From: Exiguobacterium sp.
Lineage (GTDB): Bacteria; Bacillota; Bacilli; Exiguobacteriales; Exiguobacteriaceae
Length of the DNA: 40,235 nucleotides
NCBI RefSeq assembly: GCF_020832205.1
Contig: NZ_JAFIFD010000010.1
Coordinates: forward strand, 1 to 40,235
Direction of reading: 5' to 3'
Shown here: in pieces, positions 3,251 to 34,346 of the stretch
How positions within the stretch are numbered: the first letter of the stretch is position 1
Layout: each line of letters opens with the position of its first letter
The notes under the pieces: model-generated
Database searches by the model: none
Seen by the model: the letters and a program-made list of their open reading frames with translations, nothing else
Told to the model about the DNA's origin: nothing
Position numbers and translations under genes: made by a program

Positions 3251-3312
3251 TTTTCCACAGATTTTTTGGAGTTATCCATAGGGTTATCCACAGAGTTATC
3301 CACAAATCCACA
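3251..3312. promoter_or_regulatory. DnaA-box cluster upstream of rlmH
   Basis: Boxes lie at 3272-3280 (TTATCCATA, one mismatch), 3284-3292 and 3296-3304 (both perfect TTATCCACA), exactly 12 bases apart and all in the same orientation. Weaker matches flank them at 3251-3259 and 3304-3312, and TGTGGATAG at 3389-3397 lies inside the next gene. B. subtilis has a DnaA-box cluster at the orthologous yydA locus, recalled as one of a few clusters outside oriC that affect initiation control. Confidence 0.8.
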
Positions 3313-3321
3313 TGTTGATAA

Positions 3322-3525
3322 TCATTTTTTACTTGACACAACATATGTTGCGTCGGCGTCACAGAACTCACATGTCACTTGTCCACTTGTGGATAGTTCC
3401 TCGAGCAACGGGTATTCGCCCGTCTCATCGACAATGATATCTAAAGCGATTTCAACATGTTCCTTGCATACTTTTTTTTCCACAGGTTTTTCCTCCTTAA
3501 AAAAGAAGCGTCGCCGCTTCTTCAT
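3322..3525 (-). CDS. CxxH/CxxC small protein (YyzF/BA_5709 family)
   Basis: A 67-residue protein with paired metal-binding motifs: CKEH at 20-23 and CEFC at 52-55. These match the small CxxH/CxxC family found between the HtrA-like protease and rlmH in many Bacillales. A single zinc site is likely; the cellular role is unknown. Its ATG overlaps the stop codon of the upstream protease gene by four bases (ATGA), so it is translationally coupled to the wal operon tail. The basic N-terminus (KKRRRFFFK) is notable for such a small protein. Confidence 0.85.
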   Translation of the reverse strand: MKKRRRFFFKEEKPVEKKVCKEHVEIALDIIVDETGEYPLLEELSTSGQVTCEFCDADATYVVSSKK

Positions 3526-17226: not shown

Positions 17227-18327
17227 TTAAACGTTGAAGCGGAACGTGACGACGTCGCCATCTTGGAAGACGTACTCTTTCCCTTCCGACCGAAGCTTAC
17301 CTTGTTCTTTAACTGTCGTCATGTTGCCTGCTGTCGACAAATCTTCGTACGACACGACTTCGGCACGGATGAAACCGCGTTCGAAGTCAGAGTGGATGAC
17401 ACCTGCACATTGCGGCGCCTTCATCCCTTGCTTGAACGTCCAAGCCCGAACTTCTTTCTCACCGGCCGTGAAGTATGTCGCGAGGCCAAGCGTCGAGTAA
17501 GCGGCACGAATCAACTGGTCGAGACCAGACTCTTCAATACCAAGGTCTTGCAAGAATTCTAGGCGCTCTTCCGGCTCGAGTTCTGAAATCTCTTCCTCGA
17601 TGCGGGCACAGATGACGATGACTTGCGCATCTTCAGTCGCCGCGTGCTCACGCACCGCCTGGACGTACGGGTTGTTGTCCGAATCCGCGACTTCATCTTC
17701 GCTCACGTTCGCGACGTAAAGCATCGGCTTCATCGTGAGCAACTGGAAGTGTTTGACGATGGCGAGTTGGTCTTCTGTCAACTCAGCGACGCGAGCTGGG
17801 CGCTCCGATTCGAGGACGGCTTGAACGATTTCAAGTGCTTCAAGTTCTTGAGGTGCACCCTTATCTTTCGATTTGACCATCTTTTGGACGCGTGTGATGC
17901 GTTTCTCGACCAACTCGAGGTCCGCTAAAATGAGTTCGAGGTTGATCGTCGTGATGTCGTCGATCGGTGACACTTTACCTGCCACGTGCGTGATGTTGTC
18001 GTCTTCGAAACAACGGACGACTTGGCAAATCGCATCGACTTCGCGGATGTTGGCCAAGAATTTGTTCCCAAGCCCTTCGCCTTTAGACGCACCTTTGACG
18101 ATTCCGGCGATGTCTGTGAATTCAAACGCTGTCGGCACCGTCTTTTTCGGTTTGACGAGCTCTGTCAATCGATCGAGCCGCGCATCCGGCACTTCAACGA
18201 CCCCAACGTTCGGGTCGATCGTGGCGAACGGATAGTTGGCCGCTTCCACACCTGCTTGCGTAATTGCGTTAAATAGTGTCGATTTTCCGACGTTCGGTAA
18301 ACCGACGATTCCTGCTGTTAATCCCAC
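17227..18327 (-). CDS. ychF: Redox-regulated ATPase YchF (Obg-family)
   Basis: A 366-residue TRAFAC-class NTPase that binds the ribosome and prefers ATP. It has G1 GLPNVGKST (about 8-16), the DIAG segment (about 69-72) and a C-terminal TGS domain ending VTFRFNV. B. subtilis carries it in the same place (yyaF/engD). The start is GTG at 18327 with GAGGAGG eight bases upstream. A Noc-type site lies 22 bases before the start. Confidence 0.96.
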   Translation of the reverse strand: MGLTAGIVGLPNVGKSTLFNAITQAGVEAANYPFATIDPNVGVVEVPDARLDRLTELVKPKKTVPTAFEFTDIAGIVKGASKGEGLGNKFLANIREVDAICQVVRCFEDDNITHVAGKVSPIDDITTINLELILADLELVEKRITRVQKMVKSKDKGAPQELEALEIVQAVLESERPARVAELTEDQLAIVKHFQLLTMKPMLYVANVSEDEVADSDNNPYVQAVREHAATEDAQVIVICARIEEEISELEPEERLEFLQDLGIEESGLDQLIRAAYSTLGLATYFTAGEKEVRAWTFKQGMKAPQCAGVIHSDFERGFIRAEVVSYEDLSTAGNMTTVKEQGKLRSEGKEYVFQDGDVVTFRFNV

Positions 18328-18348
18328 TTGTATGTCCTCCTCATCCGG

Positions 18349-18362
18349 CTTTCCCGGGAAAT
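18349..18362. promoter_or_regulatory. Noc-binding site (NBS) upstream of ychF
   Basis: CTTTCCCGGGAAAT matches the B. subtilis Noc consensus ATTTCCCGGGAAAT at 13 of 14 positions. A noc gene is present in this window. Noc bound at such sites spreads on DNA, attaches to the membrane and blocks FtsZ ring assembly over the nucleoid. Confidence 0.75.
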
Positions 18363-18468
18363 GTTAATCCGTCTGTGGAGTGGGTACATGTAGTACACCA
18401 CACCGTCACATCCTTCACAATTATAGTTAGTCCGCGATTAAACCGCAACTCAACGTATGAACATATAG

Positions 18469-19614: not shown

Positions 19615-19785
19615 ATTTTCACCTCGTAAAGTCGTAGATTCTAACCCATCAAACCATAGTTCACGACTTTTCTCAAACCCTACATCTAGACGTTATAAGT
19701 TTCATTGTTTTGGGAATGGATTAATACGGTATCTTTCCAACAAGACAACTAGACACCCTGCAGCTCAGAAGAGAGGATGAGATTC

Positions 19786-20412
19786 ATGCCGTTTCGCCTA
19801 AAACCTCATAAACCGTACTCCTTCTTCATCGAACATACCGAACGGAATGGATCTAGCCTGTTTGCCGACCAACTCCACGATCAGTTGGCGAACGAGGCGC
19901 ATCGTCCGATCGTCCTCGTCTGTATCGGATCCGACCGCTCGACCGGAGACTCACTCGGTCCCCTCGTCGGTACGTTTCTTGAAGAACGGGCAGTCCGCAA
20001 CTTATACGTTTACGGAACATTGACCAAACCGGTTCACGCGTTGAACTTGGTCGAAACGCTTCATGAAATCCAAACAAGGTTCCATCGTCCTTTAATTATC
20101 GCAATCGACGCGTGCCTCGGCCGCTTATCGAGCGTCGGTTACGTCTTTTTCTCAGAAGGTCCGCTCGCACCCGGTGCCGGCGTACAAAAAGAGTTGCCTT
20201 CGGTCGGCGAGTACAATATTAAAGCCGTCGTCAACGTGAGTGGTTTCATGGAAATGATGATTCTGCAAAATACCCGCCTTCACCTCGTCTATGAGCTCGC
20301 TCGTTTCATTACGGAAGGGTTCGCCGAGTTTGACGCCCGCGTCAACCGCCTGCATCATGAAGAGGCCGCCATCACGAGGCTTCGTCAGTCACGTGACGAG
20401 TCGAAATCTTGA
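19786..20412 (+). CDS. yyaC: YyaC (DUF1256), Gpr-like sporulation-associated protein
   Basis: A 208-residue protein of the YyaC/DUF1256 family, related to the spore protease and hydrogenase maturase fold. Conserved stretches are VCIGSDRSTGDSLGPLVG (about 42-59), LIIAIDACLG and the GAGVQKELPSVGEYNIKAVVNVSGF region. In B. subtilis the gene is expressed in the forespore under SigF. I chose the ATG at 19786, nine bases after GAGAGG, rather than the ATG at 19777 that abuts it. It is on the plus strand, opposite to all neighbours and head-on to the leftward fork, and its 3' end overlaps parB by 28 bases. Its presence in a lineage thought not to sporulate is odd. Confidence 0.9.
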   Translation: MPFRLKPHKPYSFFIEHTERNGSSLFADQLHDQLANEAHRPIVLVCIGSDRSTGDSLGPLVGTFLEERAVRNLYVYGTLTKPVHALNLVETLHEIQTRFHRPLIIAIDACLGRLSSVGYVFFSEGPLAPGAGVQKELPSVGEYNIKAVVNVSGFMEMMILQNTRLHLVYELARFITEGFAEFDARVNRLHHEEAAITRLRQSRDESKS

Positions 20413-21167
20413 GGTGACAACAAGGTGAGCAGCTGCTCAAGGTCATCTTGCGAGAAATATTTCAACTCGAGGACGCCGCCTTTACGACGCGGCCGGATCG
20501 AGACATCCATTTGGAGACGTTCTGCTAGTACCGCCTCGACGGCTTCAACGTCGGCGTTCGAGCGCTTGAGCGTCTTTTTTGCTGTGCGCTCTTTTTGTAA
20601 GAAACGCTCGAGGCGTCGAACCGTCCACTGCTCGGCGATAACTCGTCTGGCAATTTGCTCCATCGCCTGCTCGGACTTCATCCCTGTAATCGCGCGGGCA
20701 TGTCCCATCGTCAACTCCCCGACCATGACGGCGTGCTGAACGGCACTCGGCAACCGGAGGAGGCGCAAACTGTTCGTCACGTGGCTTCGGCTTTTCCCGA
20801 CACGTTCCGCCAACTGTTGTTGCGTCAGGCCGAGTGTCTGCATGAGCTGTTCATAGGCGAGCGCTTCTTCGATCGCGTTCAAATCTGCACGCTGAATGTT
20901 CTCGATGAGGGCAAGCTCCATGACCCGGTCCGAATCCGCCGTCACGATGAGCGCCGGGATATCTGACTTCCCTGCCAATTGCGCCGCTTGATAACGACGT
21001 TCACCGGCGATGATCTCATAAAATCCGCTCGCTTTTCGAACGACGATCGGTTGCAACACCCCGTATCGTTCAATTGACTGACGCAATTCATCTAGTTTCT
21101 CTGGCTCGAATTGTTTTCGGGGCTGATTCGGGTTCGGACGAATGAACTTGATCGGTAGCCGTTCCAT
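20385..21167 (-). CDS. parB: Chromosome-partitioning protein ParB (Spo0J)
   Basis: A CTP-dependent DNA clamp that loads at parS and recruits SMC. The 260 residues contain the N-terminal CTPase motifs (PNPNQPRKQF at 11-20, AGERRYQA at 54-61, ALIENIQR), a helix-turn-helix (about 120-145, GKSRSHVTNSLRLLRLP) and a C-terminal dimer domain. It lacks the extra N-terminal residues that contact Soj in many Spo0J proteins: the sequence begins almost directly at the parS-loading domain. No soj/parA gene is adjacent: the 44 bases between parB and noc hold only the noc terminator and a Shine-Dalgarno (AAGGAGG). ParB with no ParA next to it is also seen in streptococci. Confidence 0.95.
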   Translation of the reverse strand: MERLPIKFIRPNPNQPRKQFEPEKLDELRQSIERYGVLQPIVVRKASGFYEIIAGERRYQAAQLAGKSDIPALIVTADSDRVMELALIENIQRADLNAIEEALAYEQLMQTLGLTQQQLAERVGKSRSHVTNSLRLLRLPSAVQHAVMVGELTMGHARAITGMKSEQAMEQIARRVIAEQWTVRRLERFLQKERTAKKTLKRSNADVEAVEAVLAERLQMDVSIRPRRKGGVLELKYFSQDDLEQLLTLLSPQDFDSSRD

Positions 21168-21196
21168 ATGCGTTCCTCCTTATTCGTACAACGATT

Positions 21197-21232
21197 GAAA
21201 AAAGCACGGGCTCACTTTTGTGGCCGTGCTTT
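21197..21232 (-). terminator. Terminator at the noc 3' end
   Basis: AAAGCACGGC and GCCCGTGCTTT pair on the minus strand around a 10-base loop and run into TTT. The noc stop codon lies in the loop. It would reduce read-through from noc into parB. Confidence 0.8.
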
Positions 21233-22090
21233 AGGGATTCGAATTCGAATCTCGACGAACCCGTCTTCTTCGACTTCTTCAGTTTCGACTTCAATACCTG
21301 TCTTGCCGATCAGTTCGACCGAGTCACGAATCGTGTTGATGGCGATCCGTGTATCCCGAGCGAAACTTTTCGTCCGGCGATGCCGTTTCTTCGGCTTCCG
21401 CTTTTCTTCTTCGATCGGTGACAACAACAGTTCGACTCGCGCTTCCGTCTCTTTGACGTTGTACTCTTGTTCGATGATCTCGACGAGCACCTCAAGCTGC
21501 AGATGCGGATCTTTGAGCGGCAACAAGGCGCGCGCATGACGTTCGTTGATTTGACGATCCCGCAGACATTGCTTCACATCTTCGGGAAGTTTCAACAGGC
21601 GCAGCTTGTTCGCGATCGTCGATTGACTCTTGCCGAGACTTTTGGCGAGTGCGGCTTGCGTTAAACCGTTCATAGCCAAGAGACGTTCATACGCCTCTGC
21701 TTCTTCAATCGGACTGAGCTGTTCTCGTTGCAAGTTCTCGATGAGCGCGAGCGCTGCGGTCGTATCGTCATCCATATCACGGACGATGGCAGGAATCGAC
21801 GACCATCCGAGCGATTTGGCCGCACGGAAGCGCCGTTCCCCGGCGATGATCTCGTAGCGGTCGAGTTCTACCCGCCTGACGACGATCGGTTGGAGCAAAC
21901 CGTGCTCTTGAATCGTCACGGCCAATTCTTCAATCTTGGCCGGCTCGAACACTTTACGCGGTTGATAGCGGTTCGGAAGCAAGAGCGATAATTGAATCTC
22001 TTCGACTTGATCGTGCGGTCTGACTTGTGCCATTTCCGTAACGGCCACTTCTTGTCGATTTCCAAACCACTTGGCAAATGTTTTCTTCAA
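21212..22090 (-). CDS. noc: Nucleoid occlusion protein Noc
   Basis: A ParB paralogue that binds NBS sites and prevents division over the nucleoid. It has the Noc-specific amphipathic membrane-targeting helix at the N-terminus (MKKTFAKWFGN), the ParB-type CTPase motifs (LPNRYQPRKVFEP, AGERRFRAAK, ALIENLQREQL), a helix-turn-helix (LGKSQSTIANKLRLLKLP) and a C-terminal IRIPK segment. The overall match is to B. subtilis Noc rather than Spo0J. A TTG at 22090 lies eight bases after AAGGGG and gives exactly the B. subtilis-type N-terminus (292 residues); the GTG at 22099 overlaps the Shine-Dalgarno. Confidence 0.93.
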   Translation of the reverse strand: MKKTFAKWFGNRQEVAVTEMAQVRPHDQVEEIQLSLLLPNRYQPRKVFEPAKIEELAVTIQEHGLLQPIVVRRVELDRYEIIAGERRFRAAKSLGWSSIPAIVRDMDDDTTAALALIENLQREQLSPIEEAEAYERLLAMNGLTQAALAKSLGKSQSTIANKLRLLKLPEDVKQCLRDRQINERHARALLPLKDPHLQLEVLVEIIEQEYNVKETEARVELLLSPIEEEKRKPKKRHRRTKSFARDTRIAINTIRDSVELIGKTGIEVETEEVEEDGFVEIRIRIPKARPQK

Positions 22091-22108
22091 CGTCGGCACC
22101 CCTTATGT

Positions 22109-22144: not shown

Positions 22145-22160
22145 AGTTTCACGTGAAACA
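22145..22160. promoter_or_regulatory. parS site between rsmG and noc
   Basis: AGTTTCACGTGAAACA matches the B. subtilis parS palindrome TGTTTCACGTGAAACA at 15 of 16 positions. It lies about 1 kb from parB and just upstream of noc. Confidence 0.9.
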
Positions 22161-26173: not shown

Positions 26174-26339
26174 TCTTTCCCTCCAAACTTCATCCATTCC
26201 TTCATCATATGCATAACGCACCTACTATACACGATATTCGACTGGAACGAAAGCGTCCGACCTTTCCTAAATTCATTGCGTTTTACTCATTCACTTTTGT
26301 ACAATAAAGTAATATATTTCCAAAAGGGAGTTGAAAAGG

Positions 26340-27095
26340 ATGCGTCAGCACGAGGCAATTCACGTCTTGACTGAGACGTTACGTCATGATGAAGCGGTCC
26401 GCGCTATTTTCTTGAAAGGCTCGTTCGGTCGCAAAGAAGGTGACGAACATTCCGATGTCGATTTATATGCGATGGTGCCTGAAGATGAGCTCGATGCGTT
26501 CTTAACACGACGACGCGCACATCTCGCCGCGTACCGCCCGATATTATTAGAAGATGAGATTCATATCATCGCTCCGCAACTGATCGTCGTCTATGATAAT
26601 TTCCTGCACGTCGATTTATTCACGGTGACGGAAGCTAGGTTGTACACCCAGGACGAGATCGTCACACTATACGATCCAGACGAGCTGCTCCGCCACCATC
26701 CGCGCACGCTGACGCTAACGGACCACGATCTATTCGAACACGCGTTTGATGCGATTTGGTTCTTCTTTCAATATACGAAAGCACGGGACCGTGGAAACGA
26801 CGTCTGGGCGGTCGACATGCTTCGTCAAGGAATGATTCATTTTGCCTATGTACTTGCCGCGCATCATGACCCTTCCCGTGCCGCGCTCGGATTAAAAGAC
26901 GCGGCCGTCCGGGACGTGATCCCGCTCCGTGAGTGGTATGAAGCGCTGACACCTTCACGCCATCCGATCGCTGCCAAACGCTACATCGCTTGGCTCGAGG
27001 AAGAGCAGGTGTTTTTCGAGACGATGTCCGGGTTCAATCGCCTCCGTCTATTTTATGATCAGTTGATTCAGCGTGAAAAAAGCCGCCCTCATTGA
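26340..27095 (+). CDS. Nucleotidyltransferase-domain protein of unknown substrate
   Basis: A 251-residue protein with the DNA-polymerase-beta-type nucleotidyltransferase motif GSFGRKEGDEHSDVDLY near residues 26-42, where the two Asp of SDVDL bind metal; a third acidic residue is probable in FLHVDLFTV (about 90-98). The rest is helical. The layout recalls aminoglycoside or lincosamide adenylyltransferases, but I cannot name a substrate, and no resistance should be assumed. I chose the ATG at 26340, nine bases after AAGGGAG; a TTG lies at 26331. It is a plus-strand gene between leftward mnmE and yidC, at or near the place where jag (khpB) normally lies, so it is a likely insertion. Confidence 0.85.
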   Translation: MRQHEAIHVLTETLRHDEAVRAIFLKGSFGRKEGDEHSDVDLYAMVPEDELDAFLTRRRAHLAAYRPILLEDEIHIIAPQLIVVYDNFLHVDLFTVTEARLYTQDEIVTLYDPDELLRHHPRTLTLTDHDLFEHAFDAIWFFFQYTKARDRGNDVWAVDMLRQGMIHFAYVLAAHHDPSRAALGLKDAAVRDVIPLREWYEALTPSRHPIAAKRYIAWLEEEQVFFETMSGFNRLRLFYDQLIQREKSRPH

Positions 27096-29641: not shown

Positions 29642-30074
29642 TTATCCACATGATTTGCTAGTTATCCACACTTATATGTGAATAACTCCTCTTTTTTCAA
29701 CAAAGTTATCCTCTTATTTTTTAAAATATCGTTTTCCTCTCTTACAAAAATGTTATTCACATTTCTTTCTTCCTCTTTTGTGCATAACTTTTTACCTCGA
29801 GTATTCCTCTTATCTCGTTTATCCACAACATATCCACAGTTTATCCACACTATACACAGCATGTGGATAAGTGCCTGTGGATTGTTTTCGCAGTCTGTGG
29901 ATAAATATCAAAAAGCGTTGCCACGTCTATTTTATTTTGATAAACTGAATGTGCACAAACTTGTGGATGAACTTTCAGTCATAACAAGATATACACAGGC
30001 TGTGGATAACTGTTATCCCCACCATCAACACCGTGTGGATAACTTTATCCACAGTTTTTGTTCTCTGTGGATAA
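29642..30074. other. oriC: oriC, upstream DnaA-box cluster
   Basis: Ten perfect DnaA boxes are visible. Plus orientation (TTATCCACA): 29642, 29662, 29819, 29841, 30045. Minus orientation (TGTGGATAA): 29862, 29896, 30001, 30034, 30066. Single-mismatch boxes include 29677, 29753, 29779, 29830, 29962 and 30013. A very AT-rich, box-poor stretch lies at 29690-29815. This corresponds to the incA/incB part of the B. subtilis origin, upstream of dnaA. The boxes closest to dnaA probably also regulate its transcription. Confidence 0.95.
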
Positions 30075-30156
30075 TCCTAGTATGTACTATAGAATAGTGA
30101 TTGTGTATATCGTGTGAATAAGTTTCGCCAACATAAACGGTAAAGGAGGTCTTTCA

Positions 30157-33010: not shown

Positions 33011-33226
33011 ATGAACAAAGTGTCGATTACAACCGAGTATGTAACACTCGGACAATTTTTAAAGTTGGCGGATATTATCTCAAGCGGAGGCCAAGCAAAG
33101 TTTTTCTTGGAAGACGTGCAAATTAAAGTGAACGGTGAAGTGGATCAACGTCGCGGACGTAAGCTCCGTGACGGAGATAAGATCGAAGTCGAAGGCTTCG
33201 GAGATTTCCAAATCGAGGGCAACTAA
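33011..33226 (+). CDS. yaaA: S4-domain RNA-binding protein YaaA (RlbA)
   Basis: A 71-residue S4-like protein: [46 protein letters not shown] holds the S4 fold. It is encoded between dnaN and recF in most Bacillales; the precise role is unknown, with a proposed link to ribosome assembly. GGGAG precedes the ATG. It lies after the dnaN terminator and one base before recF, so it starts a new unit with recF. Confidence 0.95.
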
Positions 33227-33227
33227 C

Positions 33228-34346
33228 GTGCGTCTAATGTCGATCCGATTGCAAAACTACCGCAACTACGAAACCCTCGAGCTTGATTTCTCAGATCAGA
33301 CGAACGTTCTCATCGGTGAGAACGCCCAGGGGAAAACGAATCTGCTCGAATCGATTTACGTACTTGCGCTGGCCAAATCGCATCGGACGACACAAGATCG
33401 CGAGTTGATTGGATGGGAGTCCGATGCCGCATTCATCGAGGGGCGGATCCATAAACGGACAGGTGAGACGGTCCAGTCCCTCACGTTCTCCTCAAAAGGC
33501 AAAAAAGCGAAGCTGAATCATCTGGAACAACGGCGACTTAGCGATTATGTCGGCGCATTCAACGTCGTCTTGTTCGCTCCAGAAGACCTTGCGATCGTCA
33601 AAGGTAGCCCGCAAGGCCGCAGACGATTTTTAGACATGGAAATCGGTCAAGTCAGTCCAGTGTACTTGCACGACTTGAATCAATATTTGAAAACGTTGAA
33701 GCAACGGAACGCTTTGTTAAAGCAGCTATCGATTAAAGGTGGGGACGAGACATTGCTCGAAGTCCTGACCGACCAGTTGATTGAAGTCGCTGTGAAAATC
33801 GTTTCAAGACGGCACCACTTTATCGATCAGCTAGAGAAATGGGCGGGACCCATTCATGCAGGGATCACGCGAAACCTAGAGACGCTGACGATTCAGTACG
33901 TATCGGACACGTTCCAAAAAGAACGTCACACGAAAGAACAGATGTTTGAAACGTATCGACAAAAGTTTGATAAAATAAGAGAGAACGAACGAAGACGAGG
34001 AGTGACCTTATTCGGTCCTCATCGCGACGACTTCGAATTGTACGTGAACGATCGAAACGTCCAAACGTTCGGTTCACAAGGTCAGCAACGCACGGCGGCC
34101 TTGTCTTTGAAACTAGCGGAGATTGAACTGATTCATGAAGAAGTCGGGGAGTACCCGCTCTTGTTGTTAGACGACGTTTTGTCAGAACTCGATGACCATC
34201 GCCAAACCCATCTGCTCGACACGATGGGAAAAAAAGTTCAAACGATCCTTACGACGACGAATATCGATGGGATTGCCCACGAAACGATTCAACAAGCTAA
34301 AGTGTTTCACGTGAAACAAGGAGAAGTTGAATCCGAATCTGTATAA
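33228..34346 (+). CDS. recF: DNA replication and repair protein RecF
   Basis: An SMC-like ATPase that helps load RecA at gaps. The 372 residues have Walker A GENAQGKT (30-37), the signature [16 protein letters not shown], and Walker [14 protein letters not shown] chose the GTG at 33228, eight bases after GAGGG, since it puts exactly ten residues before YRNY as in B. subtilis RecF; the ATG at 33237 is the alternative. The frame is open back into yaaA. The 3' end contains a perfect parS palindrome, translated as part of VFHVKQ. Confidence 0.95.
34303..34318. promoter_or_regulatory. Perfect parS site inside the recF 3' end
   Basis: TGTTTCACGTGAAACA is identical to the B. subtilis parS palindrome. 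It lies about 4 kb to the right of the origin, within recF codons 359-364. Confidence 0.95.

Follow-up and report, generated by a model that had tools for sequence, protein, structure and literature searches.

In Bacilli that encode Soj, soj sits between noc and parB. What, then, does ParB do in a chromosome in which noc and parB are direct neighbours, and what has become of the part of ParB that contacts ParA? The question is raised by a stretch of 40,235 nucleotides from Exiguobacterium sp. (NCBI RefSeq assembly GCF_020832205.1, contig NZ_JAFIFD010000010.1), the whole of which is here called the window. Its minus strand carries, in order, mnmE, an ORF that we take to be mnmG from gene position alone, rsmG, noc and parB; an MscS-type channel gene and then ychF come next. 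The central features are:

20385–21167, minus strand: parB (spo0J), 260 amino acids, protein start MERLPIKFIRPNPNQPRK, without the N-terminal ParA-binding peptide.
21168–21211, minus strand: noc–parB spacer of 44 bp, holding the parB Shine–Dalgarno sequence AAGGAGG and an in-frame TAA.
21212–22099, minus strand: noc, nucleoid occlusion protein, starting at GTG 22099 or TTG 22090.

The identities of the two paralogues are readily told apart. The product of parB matches Pfam ParB_N, HTH_ParB and ParB_C, so that the CTPase, DNA-binding and C-terminal dimerisation domains are all present; it passes the NCBIfam model parB_part (196 bits, cut-off 58.45) and falls below the cut-off of nucleoid_noc (235.1 bits, cut-off 315). 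Noc has the ParB_N and HTH_ParB domains, passes nucleoid_noc with 355.3 bits and carries the Q-K-K-R DNA-specificity residues (GKSQ..NKLRLLK..ERHAR) at the positions defined in the available text of PMC7383237. Of its two candidate starts, TTG 22090, adopted in a preliminary description of this DNA, has the seemingly better Shine–Dalgarno spacing and would give Noc an N-terminus resembling MKK.F...FG, as in other Noc proteins. No third ParB_N protein was found in the genome.

ParB itself is intact from the CTP-binding domain onwards and lacks everything before it. Its start, MERLPIKFIRPNPNQPRK, marks the onset of that domain, and in an alignment its residue 1 falls opposite residue 24 of a ParB that has a Soj partner; the ParA-binding motif LG[K/R]GL, as defined in the available text of PMC9712426, is absent. 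The CTPase and helix–turn–helix residues GERR, ENxQR and GKSR were invariant in a nine-row alignment that included this ParB. Upstream of the ATG lie the AAGGAGG ribosome site and, at 12 nt, an in-frame TAA, which together exclude an alternative upstream start and hence a hidden N-terminal extension. The preliminary description had noted 44 bases between the genes and a ParB beginning near its CTPase motif without an extension; both observations hold, there is no soj in the spacer, and the upstream start that it had raised against itself is excluded by the stop codon.

Other features of the window stand apart from this question. A yyaC-type spore protease gene (19777–20412) is convergent to parB, the last 28 bp of which it overlaps, and beside mnmE the plus-strand ORF 26331–27095 gives a weak match to polymerase-beta-type nucleotidyltransferases (24.4 bits, cut-off 26.9). 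At 2192–2659 a 155-amino-acid protein with likeness to SocA-type antitoxins (89.4 bits, cut-off 190) is abutted by a 628-amino-acid protein (305–2191) lacking any NCBIfam match at 1e-10; the two are possibly a toxin–antitoxin or defence pair.

A whole-genome search with Pfam AAA_31, the ParA family, returned seven matches in six proteins, none of which is Soj and none of which is on the window's contig, in agreement with the earlier remark that the window encodes no ParA-type ATPase. Four of the six scored above NCBIfam cut-offs, as MinD, two EPS tyrosine autokinases and ArsA; below the cut-offs were an ApbC/Mrp-type protein and a MinD-like protein adjoining FlhF, which we read as FlhG. When B. 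subtilis Soj was used as the query, the best match in the genome was MinD, at 24% identity, and there was no Soj match at E≤1e-20. With both searches in hand, the idea that a family search had overlooked soj was rejected, and the soj elsewhere in the genome that the preliminary description had proposed looking for was not found. Two marks of a ParABS system, a cognate ParA/Soj and the LG[K/R]GL motif of ParB, are therefore missing here, and the marks of a ParA-less ParB–parS–SMC system (no ParA, a peptide-less ParB and an encoded SMC) are present.

The arrangement is general in the window's order. Both parB and noc were present and adjacent in all 38 order genomes, and in each of the 30 loci measured the distance from the noc stop codon to the ParB core was 69–82 nt, too short for soj. 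The LG[K/R]G motif is missing from all 30 order ParBs that were read, 23 of which were judged by eye and the other seven used in the tree described below, and none of the 12 order members of our class sample had a Soj match at E≤1e-40. At E≤1e-20, 24 of the 38 order genomes did have Soj-like matches, all at 28–35% identity. The three such ParA loci examined (L015, L020 and L022) lie away from noc–parB, on contigs that are smaller or secondary; their ParAs share 29–35% identity with Soj, and the gene next to ParA in L020 and L022 is of ribbon–helix–helix type by Pfam, not ParB. A Soj orthologue in order relatives was rejected on the identities and on the positions of these three loci, and we take the 28–35% identical ParAs for plasmid partition genes. 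On a smaller contig, in L022 (1492–3733), two parA genes stand in tandem: the ribbon–helix–helix-type gene follows one of them, and the gene after the other has no Pfam match. The same parA–ribbon–helix–helix pair recurs at 1486–2954 of L020.

Soj and the ParB peptide are absent together across the class. Of 161 class genomes, 131 had a Soj match at E≤1e-40. ParB was recovered from 159; G156 and G157, in which neither ParB nor Noc was found, were left out, G156 having no Soj match and G157 only a 39% identical ParA match at 7e-43. The 159 comprise 130 genomes with an orthologous Soj (65–95% identity) and 29 without: 12 of the window's order, nine of genus g11 in family f10, seven of family f26 and one of family f42. 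(Thirty of the 161 genomes had no Soj match, and ten of these were identified by subtraction.) The comparison of ParB N-termini that the preliminary description had suggested separates the two groups completely: alignment to a Soj-partnered ParB begins at residue 1–6 in 130/130 genomes with Soj and at residue 9–24 in 29/29 without it, the lone start at 9 (G003) belonging to an alignment that crosses a stop codon, at a locus (L037) without the motif. In a tree set of 65 ParB cores (seven of the 30 loci from the order, plus the 58 class loci, among 159 class genomes, for which ParB had been fetched), the strict motif LG[K/R]G was present in 41/41 ParBs from Soj-encoding genomes and 0/24 of the others. 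The earlier claim that loss of Soj was accompanied by loss of its contact region on ParB is supported to this extent, that absence of the one goes with absence of the other.

How many independent events underlie this pattern is a separate matter. The association of Soj with the peptide gave a Fisher p of 2e-32 over the 159 genomes, a value that ignores kinship; on the tree only three changes were needed, two of them on starred branches, and an independent-pairs sign test had two pairs (p 0.5), too few events to reach significance. Family f10 is informative: genus g11 lacked Soj in 9/9 genomes, and genus g53 had Soj and the motif in 2/2, with soj between noc and parB in both members. Because g53 keeps soj and the motif within f10, g11 and the window's order seem to have undergone separate losses. 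In g11, parB lies apart from noc, and its open leader has roughly the usual length but no motif. ParB is reduced to its core at all seven f26 loci, and the Noc search found a single ParB-family match in each of these seven genomes. We read g11 as Staphylococcus-like and f26 as Streptococcus-like, judging by the genes that they contain and by published reports that such bacteria lack ParA. Faster evolution of the whole ParB was also considered as a source of the divergent N-terminus: comparison of the order with Soj-encoding genomes gave 0.50 for ParB and 0.60 for Noc, as against 0.58 and 0.64 among pairs of Soj-encoding genomes. This candidate was rejected, the excess divergence being modest to weak and absent in G185.

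A further case came from named ParB loci across bacteria, of which the best 80 of at least 595 were inspected. Among these 80, 77 had ParA in the fetched flanks. The three that did not were L215, with a 49% identical ParA elsewhere in its genome, L236, where a contig edge falls at the locus, and L183 from Lysinibacillus alkalisoli, whose genome has no Soj orthologue. The L. alkalisoli gene order is mnmG–rsmG–noc–parB–MscS–ychF without soj (MscS being below its cut-off), and its ParB leader is of normal length and scrambled, with MDKLTTGANAFF in place of the MAKGLGKGIGALF of L. fusiformis. The best genome-wide Soj match was 38% identical in L. alkalisoli (assembly completeness not stated), compared with 78% in L. 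fusiformis, and the gene for this 38% identical ParA is followed by one with a ParB_N domain. L. alkalisoli stands outside the tree of 65 ParB cores. In three of these best 80 of at least 595 loci (L172, L178 and L184), a ParA accompanies a ParB whose motif deviates, so that a ParB with a Soj partner need not carry the motif in its strict form; in L205 and L233, LGRGL was found further upstream, so that the motif is present.

Sites of the parS, Noc-binding and DnaA-box types are also in the window:

22145–22160, plus strand: parS AGTTTCACGTGAAACA, one mismatch, between noc and rsmG.
34303–34318, plus strand: parS TGTTTCACGTGAAACA, perfect, near the 3' end of ORF 33135–34346.
18349–18362, plus strand: candidate Noc-binding site CTTTCCCGGGAAAT, one mismatch to ATTTCCCGGGAAAT.
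29642–30121, no strand assigned: oriC-type DnaA-box cluster, between the two parS sites.

ORF 33135–34346 is presumably recF, to judge from its position. The two parS sites, which flank oriC, are the only matches within three mismatches in the window (0.30 expected; at least two in 5/100 shuffles), a third parS-type site with one mismatch lies elsewhere in the genome, and, of 12 order loci scanned, 11 have a parS-like site with at most two mismatches in the vicinity of noc. The Noc-binding pattern had seven matches within three mismatches in the window (2.4 expected; seven reached in 1/100 shuffles), one of them a 14-mer with a single mismatch, and the genome as a whole held three such sites at one mismatch to a 16-base pattern that is perhaps too strict. 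With the whole parS/NBS pattern, 14 forward sites were found in the genome, against one for the backward control. SMC is encoded as a 1,194-amino-acid open frame with a hinge and an N-terminal ATPase domain. Inside the window's parB there is no parS within three mismatches; parS does occur inside parB in a number of Soj-encoding loci (L087 at 2792, L088 at 2742 and L090 at 3000). A second DnaA-box cluster, with seven boxes within one mismatch of which two are perfect, lies at 3251–3484, about 26 kb from oriC and directly upstream of rlmH, which we take to be yydA; near rlmH, a cluster of at least five DnaA boxes was seen in six of eight order genomes fetched. DnaA of B. subtilis binds upstream of yydA (PMC4447404, available text).

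We consider it highly probable that the locus is a ParA-less chromosomal ParB–parS centromere from which soj was lost, and that its peptide-less ParB binds parS, clamps and loads SMC while Noc provides nucleoid occlusion. From the ancestral order noc–soj–parB, the usual one in the class, soj would have been lost, and parB in the window's lineage would have lost about its first 24 codons, encoding the ParA-binding peptide LG[K/R]GL, leaving a truncated protein that starts at the CTP-binding domain. This ParB would bind parS on either side of oriC, close as a CTP clamp and load SMC, feeding no ParA, and Noc would carry out nucleoid occlusion. Since SMC and parS are retained, SMC loading is, as judged from gene content, the likely remaining role of ParB, and the peptide was presumably dispensable once Soj had gone. 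The preliminary description inferred that partitioning relies on ParB–SMC loading alone; this may be so, SMC and parS being present, but MinD is encoded as well.

The route to this state may have been shorter. A single deletion could have taken soj and the first parB codons together, the coupled loss then being one accident and not a stepwise relaxation, an account that we regard as entirely possible, if a little short of probable. In a B. subtilis-like locus the two genes overlap (G102: soj match 17681–18439, parB match from 18435), and the short interval between noc and the ParB core in all 30 order loci is what a clean deletion would leave. However, in L. alkalisoli and the Staphylococcus-like genomes (with putative start codons in the latter) ParB has an open leader whose length is near normal and from which the motif is gone, so stepwise erosion seems to occur; for the window's order no intermediate was found. 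A more sweeping proposal goes beyond the ParA-less centromere described above: that Soj was lost for good in the order, that Noc, whose gene directly precedes parB close to oriC, came to restrain DnaA as its counterpart in S. aureus does, that ParB is an SMC loader only, and that in general the N-terminal peptide serves ParA alone and decays whenever Soj is lost. We think it unlikely that this holds as a whole.

Substitution of Soj by another ParA-family ATPase, whether MinD, the FlhG-like protein or, in some relatives, a plasmid ParA, is more doubtful still. The genome does encode MinD and the FlhG-like protein, and other ParAs occur in 24 of the 38 order genomes, but the known ParA contact is missing from every order ParB read, the extra ParAs examined are distant from Soj and lie on smaller or secondary contigs (with the ribbon–helix–helix-type neighbour in L020 and L022), and the window's own genome has no Soj match at E≤1e-20. 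That soj is present and was missed by the assembly, a draft of 57 contigs, can practically be dismissed, given a completeness of 100, a contiguous noc–parB locus without soj and the lack of any match above 35% identity in 38 order genomes, several of them in one to three contigs.

The ParA-less centromere that we favour has partial counterparts in known systems. With B. subtilis the window shares the rsmG–noc–(soj)–parB neighbourhood, the type of parS and the Noc specificity residues, but it lacks Soj, the ParB peptide and a parS inside parB, which the B. subtilis-like locus L087 has. S. pneumoniae likewise retains ParB and parS without parA (PMC7022226, available text), and ParB is cut to its core in the f26 loci taken for Streptococcus; the window's genome differs in having Noc. 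S. aureus has ParB and Noc and no ParA, and its Noc has a role in restraining initiation (PMC5540599, available text); by analogy, Noc may be what controls DnaA in the window's genome, where Soj is missing, and the change in initiation control supposed in the preliminary description would follow the same analogy. The available text of PMC9712426 describes staphylococcal and streptococcal ParBs as lacking the N-terminal peptide in bacteria that lack ParA. The Staphylococcus-like genus g11, with parB away from noc and a leader kept without the motif, differs from the window, where the genes are adjacent and the leader is gone. The ParB of Borrelia burgdorferi, also without the peptide and kept for SMC recruitment (PMC9712426, available text), belongs to a genome that retains ParA, with control moved to ParZ, whereas in the window's genome ParA is gone. 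Paired loss of Soj and peptide was thus already known for staphylococci and streptococci from the available text of PMC9712426, to which the window's order and L. alkalisoli are additions: neither Exiguobacterium nor Lysinibacillus occurs in its main text, and among the papers listed by searches of the available literature that included Exiguobacterium, none described a ParA-less ParB in the window's group.

Together, these genomes amount to natural Soj deletions caught in several states, with the ParB leader cut in the window's order, eroded at full length in L. alkalisoli and replaced in the Staphylococcus-like genomes, and some of them have close relatives that keep Soj. Because the peptide is absent in 29/29 genomes without Soj and present, by alignment start, in 130/130 with it, these cases suggest that it has little selected function besides contact with ParA. 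In organisms such as this Exiguobacterium, the ParB–SMC function and the control of DnaA are open to study without Soj.
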